NCBI GenBank assembly: GCA_020850355.1
Contig: JADZEX010000037.1
Coordinates: 124,001-188,000 of the forward strand
Direction of reading: 5' to 3'
DNA: 64,000 nt
Source of the DNA: Fimbriimonadaceae bacterium
GTDB lineage: Bacteria > Armatimonadota > UBA10988
Under the pieces are notes generated by a model. That model searched no databases, was not told where the DNA came from, and saw only the letters and a list, made by a program, of their open reading frames with translations. A program made the translations under genes and the position numbers. Positions 4,434 to 41,618 of this stretch are shown piece by piece. Position 1 is the first letter of the stretch. The number at the start of each line of letters is the position of its first letter.

Positions 4434-4712
4434 ATGAGCGAACCATCGCGAGCCGCCCTCGAAGCGGCCAAAGCGTACCTGGCAACGGCCTCGGAGCATG
4501 TCCAGCAGTGTGCCCTGGTTTACGGCGAGGCGCGCGTCCACCGGGGCGTGCCGGCCTCCCGCGATTGGGCGGCAATCCCCCTGTGTCGCGCGCTGCACGC
4601 CACGTTGGAGGCCCTCGAAGCGATGCAGCAGCGGCTCGACGAGCTGGAGGCGCGGCTGGAGACACCCTGGCCGGTGGCCGGGCTCAGACCGCCGGCACCA
4701 GTGGCACGGTGA
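4434..4712 (+). CDS. Small hypothetical protein with a helical tail
   Basis: A 92-residue unknown protein. It is mostly alpha-helical by composition, with a probable coiled-coil segment near residues 55-75 (LEALEAMQQRLDELEARLE). There is no signal peptide or recognisable domain. A strong ribosome site (GGAGGCGG) precedes ATG 4434, supporting translation. Its 3' end overlaps the convergent kinase gene by 29 bases. I do not recognise a family. Confidence 0.5.
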   Translation: MSEPSRAALEAAKAYLATASEHVQQCALVYGEARVHRGVPASRDWAAIPLCRALHATLEALEAMQQRLDELEARLETPWPVAGLRPPAPVAR

Positions 4713-6354
4713 ACGCCGCAGCGCAGCCCTGGCCCTCGCCCGCGCTGTAGAGGTCCAGTTGGCCGCCCATCATCTCGACCAGCGCACGGCCGATCACCAG
4801 GCCCAGCCCGAGGCCGCCGTGGCGGCGGGTGTCACCGCCGTCGGCCTGGACGAACTTCCGGAACAACAGCGGCCGCCGCTCCGCGGAGATCCCGACCCCG
4901 TGGTCGGTCACCGTCACCTGCGCAAAGCGCGGCTCGCCAGCAGCCGGCAGAGCGCCGTTGAGCTGTGGCGTCGGCCCGGGCCGCAGGTCCACCGCCAACT
5001 CGACCTGACAGCCGGCGGCCCCGAACTTGACGGCGTTGTCGAGCAGGATCTGGGCCACCTGGACCAGCCGGTCGGGCTCCGCCAGCACCAACGGCTGGAC
5101 CGCGGTCGCCACCGGCAGGACCCGCAACTGCTGCGTCGCTGCCGTCTCCAGCACGGCCCGCCGGGCCGCGTCGACGGCATCCAGCAGCAAGGTTGGCCGG
5201 GCATCCAGGGCCACTCGACCCGCCTCAAGCCGAGCCAGTTCGAGCAACTGCAAGATCAGCCGTTCCAACCGTCGGCCGCCCTCCAGGGCGATCTCGGCGT
5301 ACTCCCGCTGGCCACTGGTGAGCGCGTCCGGGATACCGTCCAGCAGCAGCTCGACGTACCCCATCACCATCCCAAGTGGCGTCCGCAGCTCGTGGCTGAC
5401 GGTCGCCAGAAACTCCGATTTGAGGCGGTCGGCCGCGGCCAACTCGGCGTTGACGCGCTCCAGGTCGCCGGTGTGCCGGCGTAGCTCCTGGTTGGTCAGC
5501 GCCAGCTCCCGCGCCTGCCGGACCACCACGCTGACATCGCGCAGGACGCCCGCGGCGCCGGTGATCTGCCCGGTGTCGCTGCGCACGATGCGTGCCTGTA
5601 CGTCCATCCAGCGGAGCTTGCCGTCGGCCATCTGAAACGGGATGGTCTGCCGCCCGATCACACTGCCGCGCGGCACCAGCGCTTCGAGTCCCTGGCCGAT
5701 CCGGCTGCGCTGCTCCGGCGCCACGTAGAGCTGCATCCGGCGGCCCAGCGCGACCGCCACCGGCTCGCCGATGGTCTCCTCCCAGGCCGCGTTGAGGTAG
5801 GTCCAGCGCCCGTGGGCGTCGGTCCGGAAGATCACATCGCGGGTGTCGTTGAGGATCCCGCGCAGTTGCTGGAAGCGCTCGGCGTTGTCGATGGCGACGG
5901 CAATGTGCTCGGCCAGCCGGCGGCCGACTTCGATCGGCGGCAAGTCGGCCGGCGAGCAGCCGTAGCCGCCCACCAGAATCACGCCGACCAGCTCACCGAC
6001 GATCCTCAGCGGAAGGCTCAACCAGGCTTTGTTGACCAGGTCGGCCGGGCCGTGTTCGCCGCTGCCGTCACCCAGTTGCGCGACGAACGGCCGCTGCGCC
6101 CAGGCCGCCTCAGTCAGCGGCAGCACCGCGCCCGGGGCGCCCGGCACGCTGAGCCCGCGACTGGCAACCCGGATCAGGTAGTCGTGCCGCCGGATGTAGA
6201 GGCAGCCAAAGTCGAGCCCGAGGTGTTCGAGGGTCTGGTCGAGGCAATAGGAGACGGTGCCGTCCAGCGACATCCCGTCGCGGACCGCGGTCGCGACGGT
6301 GCGGAGGGCCATCAGCTCAAGCTGATCCGCATCCAACACCCGACGTTTCGCCAT
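4684..6354 (-). CDS. Sensor histidine kinase (GAF-PAS-HisKA-HATPase)
   Basis: A 556-residue cytoplasmic sensor kinase without membrane segments. A GAF-type domain covers roughly residues 15-170, a PAS domain about 185-310, then HisKA with SHELRTPLG (intact phosphoacceptor His) and HATPase_c with LLDNAVKFG (N box), DHGVGI (G1) and GGLGLGLVIGRALVEMMGG (G2). All catalytic motifs are present, unlike the hybrid protein at 38372. No response regulator is adjacent, so it is an orphan. It is the last gene after korA-korB and a small unknown gene, so its signal may relate to redox or carbon state, which is inference. I chose ATG 6354. Upstream in-frame codons lie in a low-quality extension. Confidence 0.88.
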   Translation of the reverse strand: MAKRRVLDADQLELMALRTVATAVRDGMSLDGTVSYCLDQTLEHLGLDFGCLYIRRHDYLIRVASRGLSVPGAPGAVLPLTEAAWAQRPFVAQLGDGSGEHGPADLVNKAWLSLPLRIVGELVGVILVGGYGCSPADLPPIEVGRRLAEHIAVAIDNAERFQQLRGILNDTRDVIFRTDAHGRWTYLNAAWEETIGEPVAVALGRRMQLYVAPEQRSRIGQGLEALVPRGSVIGRQTIPFQMADGKLRWMDVQARIVRSDTGQITGAAGVLRDVSVVVRQARELALTNQELRRHTGDLERVNAELAAADRLKSEFLATVSHELRTPLGMVMGYVELLLDGIPDALTSGQREYAEIALEGGRRLERLILQLLELARLEAGRVALDARPTLLLDAVDAARRAVLETAATQQLRVLPVATAVQPLVLAEPDRLVQVAQILLDNAVKFGAAGCQVELAVDLRPGPTPQLNGALPAAGEPRFAQVTVTDHGVGISAERRPLLFRKFVQADGGDTRRHGGLGLGLVIGRALVEMMGGQLDLYSAGEGQGCAAAFTVPLVPAV

Positions 6355-6418
6355 GACTGCTAGAACCACCCCGTGCCTCGACGGGCTGTGATTCCATCGG
6401 CCATCGCGGCGTTGGACT

Positions 6419-6718
6419 TTATGCCGGGTCGGCGCTGCCGTCGGCCAGCTCGGCCAGGCGGTCGAGGATCTGCTGGCGCGCCCAACTGGCCGCCAGCGCC
6501 TGCTCGATGAACCCGGCGATGGCCTCTTCCTCGCGCAACACCGCCAACTGCTCGCGCAACTCAGCGCTGTCGGTCCACTGGGCGTCGACCGGCTCGCCGC
6601 GCTGGCGCGCGACTGCGGTGCGAGCCACCCGCTGCTCCAGCGCGCGGCGCAGGTCACGCACCTCGGCTGCGGTCAGCTCGCCGTCGAAGACCGCGGTCAC
6701 CAGTTCGTCACGGTCCAT
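6419..6718 (-). CDS. Small hypothetical protein between korB and sensor kinase
   Basis: A 99-residue acidic, helix-rich protein beginning MDRDELVTAVFDGELTAAEV, reminiscent of the short N-terminal segment of anti-sigma-factor-like proteins (the DGEL.. motif), but no zinc-binding His/Cys pattern and no membrane segment follow. It starts 8 bases after the korB stop and precedes the kinase by 64 bases, so it is probably co-transcribed. A role in the kinase pathway is only a guess from position. Confidence 0.6.
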   Translation of the reverse strand: MDRDELVTAVFDGELTAAEVRDLRRALEQRVARTAVARQRGEPVDAQWTDSAELREQLAVLREEEAIAGFIEQALAASWARQQILDRLAELADGSADPA

Positions 6719-36860: not shown

Positions 36861-37304
36861 ATGGCCGACGTGACCGGTCTCGTGAAGGAGATTGCTGAGC
36901 GGCTCGGCGGGAGCGCCCAGCAGGAAGAAGACGACACCTGGTCGCTGGAAATCCTCGACGGCGAGGAAGTCGTCTCGCAGGTGACCATCTACTCCGACCG
37001 CATCGACGAGGGCCCGGCCGAAGGGCGGGAGCTGCTGGTGGTGCGGGCCGCCGCCGGTGAACTCGAAGAGTCGATCGAGACCTTCCTGGCCGAAGAAGCC
37101 GCCGGCACCTGGTTCTCGCGCGTCTACCTCGAAGACGACGGCGACGGCGACGGCGACGGCCGCCCGGTGGTGATCGTCGAGGCCGCGATGCCGCTGGAAG
37201 GCCTGAGCGTCGCCCTGGCGCACCACGCCGTCTTGGAAGTGGTCGACCTGGTCGAGCACGCCCAGGACTTCGTGATTGAGTACGACGAGGACGAGGAAGA
37301 GTAA
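36861..37304 (+). CDS. Small acidic protein, YbjN-like
   Basis: A 147-residue acidic protein. The layout (helix, beta-sheet, helix, acidic tail) resembles the YbjN/type III chaperone-like fold, but I do not recognise a family. The central region has a run of GACGGC repeats (37137-37160) encoding DDGDGDGDG. GCAGGAG precedes ATG 36861. No membrane segment or signal peptide. Confidence 0.55.
   Translation: MADVTGLVKEIAERLGGSAQQEEDDTWSLEILDGEEVVSQVTIYSDRIDEGPAEGRELLVVRAAAGELEESIETFLAEEAAGTWFSRVYLEDDGDGDGDGRPVVIVEAAMPLEGLSVALAHHAVLEVVDLVEHAQDFVIEYDEDEEE
37137..37160 (+). repeat. GACGGC tandem repeat, 4 copies, in coding sequence
   Basis: Four perfect copies of GACGGC encode an Asp-Gly linker in the small acidic protein. 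A hexamer repeat keeps the frame when the copy number changes. Confidence 0.9.
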
Positions 37305-37322: not shown

Positions 37323-38168
37323 CTAGCTGCGGCGCCCCAGGATGTAGTCCAGGGCGGTCGACGTATGGTAGGCGACGGCCCGACTGTGGTAGCGATAGCC
37401 GCTCATCTCCGCCGTCAGCGGGCCGCTGTAGCCAATCTCGCGGAGCGCGTTGACGACCGGCTCCCACGGCACATCGCCCGACAGCAACGGCACAAAGCCG
37501 TTGATGTTGCCAATGCTGCGCTTGAAGTCCTTGACGTGGACCCGCTTGATGCGAGTGCCCAGGATACGGATCCAGTCGACCGGATCGCCGAACGGCAGGA
37601 TGTTGCCGACATCGAAGTAGGCGCCGACGCGCGGGCTGCCGATGCCGTCGACGAAGGCGGCGAACTCGCAGGGGCTCAGGAGGAAGCCGTTCCAGACGTT
37701 CTCGATGCCCACATCGACGCCGGTCTCCTCGGCCATCGCGGCGATCTGGTCGAACGCCTCGCGGGCGCGTTCGAGGGCCGCGTCGTAAGCGACCTGGCGC
37801 GGCGGTTCACCGCCGTGGGGCAGGTAGACCACCGCCGGCACGATCAGCACGCAGCCGGCGCCGAGGGCCTTGGCGACCCGCAGGCAGTCGCCGGCGTAGC
37901 CGACGGCCTGTTCGCGAACGGCCGGATCGTCGGCCGTCAGCGAGTATTGCCAGAAGACGCCGCCGAGGGTCGAGCTGAGCTGCAGCCCGGCCGCCGCGGC
38001 GGTGGCCCGCACCGCTTGCAGGTCGGCCTCGGAACTGTCCAGCGCTGGCGCCGCACCGCTCGCCGCGGTTGCGAACTCCACCGCCTCGAAACCGGCCGCG
38101 GCGGCCAGGTCGAGCTTCTCGGCGACGGTCGCGCCGGCCAGGCTGCCGGCGCAGATGCCCTTCAACAT
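37323..38168 (-). CDS. Sugar phosphate isomerase/epimerase (AP endonuclease 2 fold)
   Basis: A 281-residue TIM-barrel protein of the xylose isomerase-like superfamily. Metal-ligand motifs are GIENVWNGFLLS (Glu), YFDVGNILPF (Asp/His region), HVKDF and AEMSGY (Glu). Members isomerise or epimerise hexoses, inosose or hydroxypyruvate. The substrate is unassigned. ATG 38168 is the start; a GCCGCACGTGCGGC palindrome lies 17 bases upstream. Divergent from the hybrid kinase-like gene. Confidence 0.82.
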   Translation of the reverse strand: MLKGICAGSLAGATVAEKLDLAAAAGFEAVEFATAASGAAPALDSSEADLQAVRATAAAAGLQLSSTLGGVFWQYSLTADDPAVREQAVGYAGDCLRVAKALGAGCVLIVPAVVYLPHGGEPPRQVAYDAALERAREAFDQIAAMAEETGVDVGIENVWNGFLLSPCEFAAFVDGIGSPRVGAYFDVGNILPFGDPVDWIRILGTRIKRVHVKDFKRSIGNINGFVPLLSGDVPWEPVVNALREIGYSGPLTAEMSGYRYHSRAVAYHTSTALDYILGRRS

Positions 38169-38257: not shown

Positions 38258-38371
38258 CGTGACTGCTGTGTGACCTCGATTCGGGGCGACTCTGCGGCAC
38301 AAGCCGATGTAGAGTGAGTGCGTGGCGGTCGGCTCAGCGACCGTCGCACGGTGGCCAGGTGGAGGACCGTG

Positions 38372-41155
38372 GTGCTGGGGTGTCCGGGTCAGGACGAGCA
38401 CGGGGTCGACGGCGGCTGGCTGGCGTCAGCCGTGGAGACCGCCGCCGCCGAGTTGGCGGCGGGGGCGGTGACGCTCGGCTGGCAGCGCGCCACGGTCTGG
38501 CAGACCGCGGGCGGCAGCAGTCAGGCTGGGCGCGGCACCGACCAGGACGGGCGCGCCCTGGCGCTGGAGCTGCCCTTCGAGCTGGGCCCGCTGCTGGCGA
38601 CTCCCGCCGGCATCTACCGCGAGCGGCCGCTGGCGCCGACCGGTGCCGGGGCGGTTCCCGGTGACCTGCTGGTCGTACCGCTGGGCCGCGCGCCGGGCCG
38701 CCGCGGCGTGCTGCTGGCCGACCCGCCAACCGCCGGCGGCGCGCCGGAAGTGGCCACCACGCTGGCACTATGCCGCGCCTTTGAGGCCAGTCTGGCCCTC
38801 GCGGCGACCTGCGAACAGCGGCAGGAGCGTCAACAGGCTGGGCTGCGGACGGTCCTCCAGATGGCCGACGCGCTGCTCGACTGCGAGGATGTCAGCGGCT
38901 TCTGCCGCGCCGCCGTCGAGACCGCGCGGGCGGGCCTCGGGGTCGAGCGGTGCGGCGTGTTCTTCCGTGACGGCGACCGGGTCCGGCCGACCTTTGGCAC
39001 CGACCTGGACGGTCAGACCACCGACGAGCGGCGCCACTCGTTCGAGCTCAACCATCTTTGGCGCGCCTGGTTCGGCGAGCCGGCCGACCTCGACCGGCCG
39101 TGGATCGTGGCCGAACGGAACCACACCAACTGGACCGGCCACGGCCGCACCGTGATCGGTCGGGGCTGGGTGGCGGTGACGCCGATCCGGGCGCGCGGTC
39201 AGACGCTGGCCCTGCTGCTCAACGACACGGCCATCAGCGGTCACCAGATGGACCCCCTGCAGCAGGACCTGCTGGCCACCTTCTGCGCCCAACTCGGCCC
39301 GCTGCTGGAGCGCGTGCAGCTCGTCGAACGCCTCCGCACCAGCGAGGCCCGCTACCGCGAGGTGGTGGAGGACCAGACCGAGCTGATCTGCCGCTTCCGC
39401 GCCGAGGGCGAGCTGCTGTTTGTGAACGAGGCCTACTGCCGTTACTTCGGCCGCCTGCGCGACGAACTGCTTGGTCGGTCGTTCTTCGAGCTGGTGCCCC
39501 CGGCCGATGTCGCAGCGATCCGGGCGCACCTCGGCGCGCTGGGAGCCAAGCGACCCAGCGCCACCGTGACGCACCGCGCGCTCCGTGGTGACGGCAGCAT
39601 CGTCTGGCAGCAGTGGGTCGACCAGGTCGTCCTGAACGACGCCGGGGAGGTCGTGGCATTCCAGTCGGTGGGCCGTGAGGCTGGCGGGCAGCTCAGCGGG
39701 CCAACCGCGGCCAACGGTCTGCTGACCAGCCACGGCGCTGCCGGGGGCCTGCCGGGCGGGTTCACGCTGCAGAGCGTCTGCCAGGAACTCGACCGGCCGC
39801 TGCGGGCCCTCAGCGCGTACGCGGGCGAGGCCCGCGATCCGGAGCTCGGGCTGGCGGTCCGGCAGACCCTCGAGGGCGTGGGCTGCATCGCGCGCTGCCA
39901 GCGTGATCTGTTGGCCGCGCTGCAGACCGACCCGGCGTTGCCGACGCCCTGGCAGGAGCCCCTGGCGGCGCCCTGCCGCCTGCGCGAAGTGCTCTGGGAC
40001 CCACTCCTGGCCCTGGGCCCGCTGGCTGCCGAACGCGGCGTCGAACTGCTCTGCCAACTCGACCCCGCGACGCCCTGGTCGGTGCTGGCCGATGCCCGGC
40101 TCTTGCGCGAGACCGTCGGGCATCTCCTGTGCCACGCCCTCCATAGCGCGGTCGACGGGCATCTGGTGCTCTCCGCCAACGCCGTGCCCGCGGCCGACGG
40201 TTGGCGGCTGGCGATCCGTGTCGAAGCGCTGGGCAGCGCCTGGGCGGGTGCCGATCCGCCGGCCGCCGCCGGTGACTCACTGCGGCTGGCGCTGGCTGAT
40301 CGCGCCGTCGCCGCCCTGGGCGGGCGCCTCGAAATCGACCGCCGCGAGGGCCGCAGCACCTGCTGGACGGTGCTCGTGGGGCTGACGGCCGACCCCGACC
40401 AGAGCGAGCCGCTGGTCTCGCGCGCGGTGGCCGGGCAGCAGGTCTGGCTGCCCGATGCCGACGACCCGACCTACCGCACCTACGCCGAGTTGCTGGCGAG
40501 CTGGGGCGTCGAGGCCGTCCGCGAGCGCCCGCTGCAGTCGCCGCTGGCCGCGCTCGTCTGCAGCAGCCCGGCCGCCTGGCCCGCGGTGCGGCAGGTCGTC
40601 GGCGAGCTACCCGTGGTCCACCTGATCCGGTGCGGTGAGGAGCTGCCGCCCGACCTCGGCGTGGTTCGCCTGCAGCGTCCGATCCGCCCGCACTTCCTGC
40701 ACCGGGCCCTGCTGCAGATCGCGGGAGCCAGCGTCGAGGAAGCTCTCGGCGGCCTGACTGGTGACCGCCGCGCGATCCGCGTCCTGGCGGTCGAAGACAA
40801 CCCCACCAACCGCGAGCTGCTGGCCTTGATGTTGGAGAAGCGCGGCTACCGCTGCACTGCCGTCAGCAGCGGCGAGGCCGCGCTCGAGTTGTACCGCCAG
40901 CAGCCCTTCGACGTGGTCCTGCTGGACCTCCAGATGCCCGGCATGGACGGCTTCGAAGTGGCCGCGCAAATCCGGGCGATGGCGCTCCCGGCGGCGGCGA
41001 CGGTGCCCATCATCGCCGTCACCGCCCGCGCGATGCGCGAGGACCGGGAGCGCTGCCTCGAGGTCGGGATGGACGCCTACCTGCCCAAACCGGTCCGCGG
41101 CCAGGACCTCGTCGAGGCGCTCGAAACGGCCCTGCGCCGGCGCGCCGCAGTCTAG
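38372..41155 (+). CDS. Hybrid histidine pseudokinase with GAF, PAS and receiver domains
   Basis: A 927-residue cytoplasmic protein: N-terminal region (1-150), a GAF-like domain (~155-320), PAS (~330-440), then kinase-like, pseudo-receiver and receiver domains. The expected HisKA box is CQELDRPLRAL with Gln471 in place of the phosphoacceptor His. The ATPase-like domain lacks the N-box Asn (LLCHALHSA), a G1 DxGxG, and the G2 motif (G634DSLRLAL instead of GxGLGL). The C-terminal receiver is intact (VEDNPTNRELL, Asp852 in VVLLDLQMPGMDG, VTARA, PKPV). An earlier segment (~685-785: VWLPDADDPTYRTYAELLASWG, PIRPHFLHRALLQIAG) is a receiver lacking the acidic pocket. It is likely a signalling scaffold or phosphate acceptor, not a kinase. 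The start is GTG 38369/38372 after GGTGGAGG. Confidence 0.85.
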   Translation: MLGCPGQDEHGVDGGWLASAVETAAAELAAGAVTLGWQRATVWQTAGGSSQAGRGTDQDGRALALELPFELGPLLATPAGIYRERPLAPTGAGAVPGDLLVVPLGRAPGRRGVLLADPPTAGGAPEVATTLALCRAFEASLALAATCEQRQERQQAGLRTVLQMADALLDCEDVSGFCRAAVETARAGLGVERCGVFFRDGDRVRPTFGTDLDGQTTDERRHSFELNHLWRAWFGEPADLDRPWIVAERNHTNWTGHGRTVIGRGWVAVTPIRARGQTLALLLNDTAISGHQMDPLQQDLLATFCAQLGPLLERVQLVERLRTSEARYREVVEDQTELICRFRAEGELLFVNEAYCRYFGRLRDELLGRSFFELVPPADVAAIRAHLGALGAKRPSATVTHRALRGDGSIVWQQWVDQVVLNDAGEVVAFQSVGREAGGQLSGPTAANGLLTSHGAAGGLPGGFTLQSVCQELDRPLRALSAYAGEARDPELGLAVRQTLEGVGCIARCQRDLLAALQTDPALPTPWQEPLAAPCRLREVLWDPLLALGPLAAERGVELLCQLDPATPWSVLADARLLRETVGHLLCHALHSAVDGHLVLSANAVPAADGWRLAIRVEALGSAWAGADPPAAAGDSLRLALADRAVAALGGRLEIDRREGRSTCWTVLVGLTADPDQSEPLVSRAVAGQQVWLPDADDPTYRTYAELLASWGVEAVRERPLQSPLAALVCSSPAAWPAVRQVVGELPVVHLIRCGEELPPDLGVVRLQRPIRPHFLHRALLQIAGASVEEALGGLTGDRRAIRVLAVEDNPTNRELLALMLEKRGYRCTAVSSGEAALELYRQQPFDVVLLDLQMPGMDGFEVAAQIRAMALPAAATVPIIAVTARAMREDRERCLEVGMDAYLPKPVRGQDLVEALETALRRRAAV

Positions 41156-41156
41156 C

Positions 41157-41618
41157 TCACCAGCCGAGCAGGGCCCGCAGGTGGTCGCGGGTCGAGTGCA
41201 GGCGCTGCGAGGCCAGGTCGGTGAGGTGGTCCATCACGCGGTAGCCAAGCTGCGGCGTGGCCTCCATCAGCTCGCGCAGCGGTGCCGCCGGGATTCGCAG
41301 CACCTCGGCCGGGCCGACCGCCACGGCTTGCGCACTGAGGCGCTGCTGCCGGGTCAGGGCCGACCATCCGAAGACCTCGCCGGGCTGCACCTGCTTGATC
41401 TGTACATGCAGCTCCTGCCCGGCATGAAGAAACGTGAATGACAGGCCGACCAGTCCACGGTGTAGCAGGAAGATGTCGGTGGCCGCTTCGTTCTCACGGA
41501 AGATCACCTGGTCGGCCTGGTACTGCTCGACCCGCGCCAACGACTCGACCGCCGGGAGCAAGTGGTCAGGCAGACCGCGGAAGAGCGCGTAGTCGGTCAG
41601 ACGGGTGGCGGTGAGCAT
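41157..41618 (-). CDS. Cyclic nucleotide-binding domain protein
   Basis: A 153-residue Crp/FNR-like cNMP-binding domain protein. LFRGLPDHLLPAVESLARVEQYQADQVIFREN, DIFLLHRGLVGLSFTF, VQPGEVFGWSALTR and LRELMEATPQLGYRVMDHL match the domain. No helix-turn-helix follows, so it binds a ligand or partner rather than DNA. It runs convergently into the hybrid pseudokinase with only 1 base between stop codons. The start is ATG 41618 with AGGAG ten bases upstream. Confidence 0.85.
   Translation of the reverse strand: MLTATRLTDYALFRGLPDHLLPAVESLARVEQYQADQVIFRENEAATDIFLLHRGLVGLSFTFLHAGQELHVQIKQVQPGEVFGWSALTRQQRLSAQAVAVGPAEVLRIPAAPLRELMEATPQLGYRVMDHLTDLASQRLHSTRDHLRALLGW

Follow-up and report, generated by a model that had tools for sequence, protein, structure and literature searches.

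We found that the gene at 38372-41155 (+ strand) of the window, the whole 64,000-nucleotide stretch of DNA analysed, encodes a histidine pseudokinase of the hybrid type: it has kinase homology, the catalytic residues are missing, and the reading frame has been maintained. By every sequence criterion its DHp and ATPase domains are inactive, and its terminal receiver is intact. Pseudo-histidine kinases as a class are already known from DivL, RetS, and an evolved ChrS variant (PMC4211667, PMC5992135, PMC9491836), and the His is missing in ~0.9% of HisKA domains (PMC12632262). Our contribution is a hybrid pseudokinase that has been dismantled more completely, and whose positional ortholog, apparently active, occupies the same locus and fixes the order of loss. 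Histidine pseudokinases are few and have mostly been studied singly, and one this degenerate escapes HisKA recognition. The presence of an inactive and an apparently active form at one locus in two genera bears on the consequences of losing catalysis for a hybrid kinase.

The gene and its parts are listed below. Residue numbers follow the 945-aa frame; subtracting 18 gives the numbering of the preliminary description of this DNA (Gln489 is its Gln471).

38372..41155, + strand: whole gene, soluble hybrid histidine pseudokinase (translation; 927 aa from the GTG at 38372)
38318..41155, + strand: alternative longer frame (945 aa from the GTG at 38318)
38375..38806, + strand: N-terminal region, GAF-like by eye, without a Pfam match or family assignment
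38810..39322, + strand: GAF sensor domain, residues 165-335 (PF01590; alignment)
39335..39682, + strand: PAS domain, residues 340-455 (PF08448/PF08447)
39725..39976, + strand: pseudo-DHp, HisKA-like (alignment to intact hybrid kinases)
39977..40408, + strand: pseudo-ATPase (CA) domain (alignment; AlphaFold2 model)
40409..40735, + strand: internal pseudo-receiver (alignment)
40766..41152, + strand: intact terminal receiver (PF00072, 105 bits)

Reading frame and kinase core

The better start is 38372, with a Shine-Dalgarno-like AGGTGGAGG just upstream. No transmembrane-like stretch was found in the protein (maximum 19-residue hydropathy, 1.64). The frame stays open for 945 codons without a stop or frameshift. 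All significant tblastn matches of intact kinases (E to 1e-41) fell in this single frame, and a search of the other reading frames at the locus for catalytic motifs found none, which ruled out a frameshift or assembly artefact. In the degenerate stretch, GC content by codon position was 0.82/0.53/0.91, and the contrast between positions 3 and 2 (z 10.7) indicated strong coding periodicity. The same stretch contains no stop codons (P ~0.012), whereas an unconstrained stretch with this composition would be expected to carry ~4.4. Because coding periodicity was strong and no frameshift was present, we regard the gene as a maintained pseudokinase; a chance ORF, a frameshift, or a fully decayed pseudogene is an unlikely explanation for the degenerate stretch.

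Along its whole length, the region between the PAS domain and the receiver could be aligned with the DHp-CA-REC-REC part of intact hybrid kinases. In the pseudo-DHp, the H box (39773-39811, SVCQELDRPLRAL) carries Gln489 in place of the phosphoacceptor His (codon 39782-39784) and Arg493 in place of the phosphatase-motif Thr at +4; in the alignment, NMSHEIRTPMNG of the intact kinases corresponds to SVCQELDRPLRA of the pseudokinase. In the CA domain, the N box at 40091-40150 has changed from NLxGNAxKFT to HLLCHALHSA, with the Asn replaced by His606 (40133-40135). The G1 region (40208-40234) is without DxGxG (DTGIGI to EALG), the G2 region (40265-40324) is without GxGLGL (GGTGLGLAI to AAGDSLRLAL, within AAGDSLRLALA), and net deletions of 12 aa and 3 aa have removed most of the ATP lid. 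What an active hybrid kinase has, namely the phosphoacceptor His, the N, G1, and G2 boxes, and the ATP lid, was not found here; every residue needed for autophosphorylation is missing, as is the transmitter-phosphatase Thr.

Profile searches gave the same picture. Pfam matched GAF, PAS, and one Response_reg domain in the protein, while no HisKA or HATPase_c match was returned at E<=1; the locus was also missing from both genome-wide lists (75 HATPase_c and 57 HisKA matches, E<=0.01). For a conservation reference, we used a subset of the 85 kinase segments from 80 loci kept in a large reference-genome scan, and took as near-invariant the columns with 90% or more conservation across 33 intact hybrid kinases. 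The pseudokinase kept 4/24 of these columns in the DHp (leave-one-out minimum 0.67) and 10/35 in the CA domain (leave-one-out minimum 0.91), values that describe its distance from intact kinases rather than the rarity of pseudokinases, as the reference homologs were selected for intact H and G2 boxes. An hhalign comparison of the pseudokinase with A1 was left out of the evidence because A1 includes the pseudokinase.

A structural model, which the preliminary description had put forward as a check, gave a kinase-like fold. For residues 456-945, AlphaFold2 returned a mean pLDDT of 79, with most of the CA domain at ~90 and much of the receiver exceeding 90; its input, an alignment of 33 intact homologs, pulls the model toward the canonical fold. 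As modelled, the CA domain is well folded, the fold being kept while the pocket is lost. The best PDB matches of the model in Foldseek were ShkA (6qrj, the best), GacS, RetS, the RetS-GacS complex 7n0e, plant phytochrome A, and DivL (4q20).

Receivers and sensor domains

The terminal receiver retains Glu826/Asp827 (40793-40798), Asp870 (40925-40927), Thr902 (41021-41023), and Lys924 (41087-41089). Every residue for Asp phosphorylation is thus present, and the domain is predicted to be phosphorylatable. It kept 23/25 conserved columns (33 intact hybrid kinases; leave-one-out minimum 0.88) and is the best conserved part of the pseudokinase, the DHp being the worst. It is a receiver of the hybrid-kinase type, closest to those of hybrid kinases. 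An OmpR-type regulator on contig C104 was considered as a close relative and ruled out by alignment. The protein ends after this receiver, without the C-terminal HPt domain of BarA/GacS-type phosphorelay kinases. In the internal receiver, the acidic pair has been lost, the conserved Lys has become Arg787, and a net deletion of 20 aa has taken out beta3/alpha3, including the phospho-Asp.

On the sensor side, the GAF domain retained 15/17 conserved positions (columns conserved in 15 related GAF domains) and belongs to a lineage-expanded GAF type. Most other kinases sharing this GAF type in this and related genomes keep recognisable H, G1, or G2 motifs in a pattern search, whose patterns could not classify some of them, for example one in genome G008. 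The first 144 residues (38375-38806) resemble a degenerate GAF domain by eye and matched none of the Pfam families.

Positional ortholog and order of losses

A positional ortholog of 760 aa was found on contig 427 of genome G002, from a sister genus of the same family (L133:1195-3477). On that contig, a TIM-barrel gene, the hybrid kinase, and a cyclic-nucleotide-binding gene match the window in order and orientation. The two synteny anchors in the window are as follows.

37323..38168, − strand: xylose-isomerase-like TIM barrel (AP_endonuc_2), divergent neighbour, 72% identical in G002
41157..41618, − strand: short cyclic-nucleotide-binding-domain protein, convergent neighbour, 48% identical in G002

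The receiver tree also paired the two hybrid proteins, with support of 99/98. In this tree, branch lengths were 0.39 for the pseudokinase and 1.65 for the ortholog (median 0.53). The kinase-domain tree cannot place the pseudokinase, whose branch is too long (~10, with 2.81 for the ortholog and a median of 0.6), and orthology is claimed from the receiver tree and synteny. Identity between the two DHp domains was 19.5%. Pfam recognised HisKA (58 bits), HATPase_c (82 bits), and a single receiver in the ortholog, whose boxes read SHEIRTP, NLVANGIKF, DTGCGI, and GVGLGL; it is apparently an active kinase. Its architecture comprises a GAF domain, a degenerate internal receiver, and an intact terminal receiver, without HPt or PAS domains. 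With a fast terminal receiver and intact kinase boxes, it is the opposite of the pseudokinase.

Because the ortholog keeps its boxes but already has a degenerate internal receiver, the loss of the kinase is specific to the window lineage and the dead internal receiver is older. Most simply, both the death of that receiver and the lack of an HPt domain predate the loss of catalysis in this lineage, and the branch lengths in the two trees fit this. The order in which the parts were lost can thus be addressed: the internal receiver first, the kinase second, with the terminal receiver kept. A paralog on contig C59 of the same genome is likewise catalytically intact with a degenerate internal receiver.

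These results bear out the core of the preliminary description, which had reported a Gln (its Gln471) at the phosphoacceptor position, unrecognisable N, G1, and G2 boxes, a final receiver with all residues for phosphorylation, and hence a sensor that had apparently lost catalysis and retained its receiver. Its observation that the internal receiver had lost its acidic pocket also stood in the alignment, but not as part of the same loss, given the ortholog and the C59 paralog. The check on conservation in relatives that it had proposed led to the positional ortholog, whose catalytic boxes are intact. Pseudokinase orthologs were sought in 61 relatives and in 291 phylum genomes, and none was found by a search that scored first-look candidates per genome and could miss a very diverged one. 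As no second pseudokinase ortholog was found in the phylum, selection on the inactive form across species is without comparative proof.

The 41157-41618 protein consists of a cyclic-nucleotide-binding domain only; a DNA-binding domain was sought in it and none was detected. Its homolog in G002 adjoins the hybrid kinase locus, and none was found in G001, G003, or G004. Weaker homologs were present in 31 further phylum genomes, and those examined had no nearby hybrid-kinase motif. On the other side, directly upstream of the opposite-strand TIM-barrel gene, 36861-37304 (+) encodes a very acidic 147-aa protein without a Pfam match.

Proposed role and known systems

A phosphoacceptor or allosteric role, as suggested in the preliminary description, still accounts best for these findings, because RetS, the closest mechanistic precedent, follows the same logic and has been tested experimentally (PMC5992135). 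RetS is missing its G boxes and does not autophosphorylate, its REC2 is phosphorylated by the DHp His of GacS, and it also dephosphorylates and inhibits GacS (PMC5992135). Judging from sequence and by analogy, we consider the chances about even that the window protein is a RetS-like phosphoryl acceptor or modulator of other hybrid kinases. Such a protein would no longer make phosphoryl groups, which would have to come from outside. Its terminal receiver would take phosphoryl from the DHp-His or HPt domain of another, probably hybrid, kinase, and the GAF-PAS input would determine the extent to which this other kinase has its output drained or modulated, via the receiver and DHp/CA contacts. As the phosphatase residue has been lost (Arg493), the transmitter-phosphatase mechanism of RetS (mechanism 2) would be closed, and phosphoryl siphoning (1) and inhibitory contact (3) would be open. 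It is also conceivable, though we hold it to be rather improbable, that the dead kinase core is a rigid coupler between input and receiver, with GAF-PAS deciding whether the receiver accepts or holds phosphoryl; the protein would then be a sensory phosphoryl sink, neither kinase nor phosphatase, and the sink's active counterpart would still lie at the same locus in the sister genus.

Candidate donors in the genome are four HPt-bearing hybrid kinases (on C59, C48, C42, and C91), and two other Hpt-domain proteins, including one on C52, are possible donors. The C59 kinase shares its GAF type, as well as its hybrid core, with the pseudokinase, but its receiver is not the closest. L148 (G000:C52:146887-147141) is 373 aa long and combines a hydrophobic N-terminal part with an Hpt domain, without a kinase; it appears to be a membrane-anchored phosphotransfer protein. 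Nothing pointed to the kinase at 4684-6657, which had been named earlier as a possible partner. It lies 32 kb away, is a plain HisKA kinase, and has neither a receiver nor an HPt domain; the four hybrid kinases with HPt domains are no less plausible as partners. No partner was encoded nearby, and none stood out by receiver phylogeny. The donor may be absent, and the receiver may act without phosphorylation.

Among other explanations, the protein might act by contact in the manner of DivL. A partner kinase or response regulator would then form a heterodimer with its DHp/CA part or bind to it, with receiver phosphorylation being secondary or only tuning that contact. In favour of this, the structure search placed DivL and RetS among its best matches, and the CA domain is well folded in the model although its pocket is gone. 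In addition, an evolved ChrS pseudokinase works together with HrrS, its paralog, and the native versions of the two heterodimerise (PMC9491836). However, conservation runs opposite to what DHp contact alone would lead one to expect, being highest in the receiver and lowest in the DHp, including the low DHp identity to the ortholog, and we consider this explanation possible but not probable. Decay of the gene, with the kinase part on its way out and the receiver surviving by recency or chance, would fit the occurrence in a single genome, the lack of any pseudokinase ortholog among the 291 phylum genomes searched, the extreme divergence of the kinase part, and the two deletions in the degenerate part. 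It is nevertheless unlikely, since 945 codons without a stop or frameshift, codon bias precisely in the degenerate stretch, the lack of stops expected under neutrality, and normal constraint on the GAF domain and receiver all argue against it.

Still less likely, in our view, is a receiver-gated output that needs no donor kinase, in which the receiver would use a small phosphodonor or work unphosphorylated on some partner, such as the cyclic-nucleotide-binding neighbour. The gene is an orphan and this neighbour is conserved beside both orthologs, but homologs of the neighbour in other phylum families have no hybrid-kinase motif in their ~1.5-kb flanks, and the receiver is of the hybrid-kinase type. 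Because homologs elsewhere are not near hybrid kinases and the two genes are convergently transcribed, the adjacency may be mere synteny. Some so-called pseudokinases prove active, and the retained CA fold of the model would allow an unusual active kinase with another phosphoacceptor or nucleotide mode. Yet the protein has lost the His, the Asn of the N box, G1, G2, and the greater part of the ATP lid all at once, and its nucleotide site is unrecognisable, which makes cryptic catalysis hardly credible.

Among known systems, several can be set beside the window protein. EspA/EspC of Myxococcus provides an example of a trans-phosphorylated hybrid kinase. DivL of Caulobacter resembles the window protein in being a pseudo-histidine kinase, one that regulates the hybrid kinase CckA, and in its fold (4q20); it carries Tyr at the His position and, to our knowledge, has no receiver of its own. 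The DHp-CA-pseudoREC-REC layout is that of ShkA/BarA-type hybrid kinases, with ShkA giving the best PDB match, but ShkA itself is active as a kinase, and its pseudo-receiver binds c-di-GMP (PMC12632262).

RetS combines a kinase core and two receivers with an HATPase domain without G boxes and a phosphorylatable last receiver (PMC5992135); the window protein has the degenerate HATPase domain and the intact last receiver, and the RetS kinase region and the RetS-GacS complex were top PDB matches of its model. RetS has features of its own, namely a periplasmic sensor, an H-box phosphorylation site, the phosphatase Thr428, and the REC1 phospho-Asp (PMC5992135). Neither the periplasmic sensor/transmembrane region nor the H-box His and phosphatase Thr of the RetS family was found in the window protein, which, unlike RetS, has a soluble GAF-PAS sensor, Gln for His, Arg for Thr, and a dead internal receiver, and comes from an unrelated lineage. 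This raises the question of whether a RetS-like phosphoryl-sink role has arisen outside Pseudomonas.
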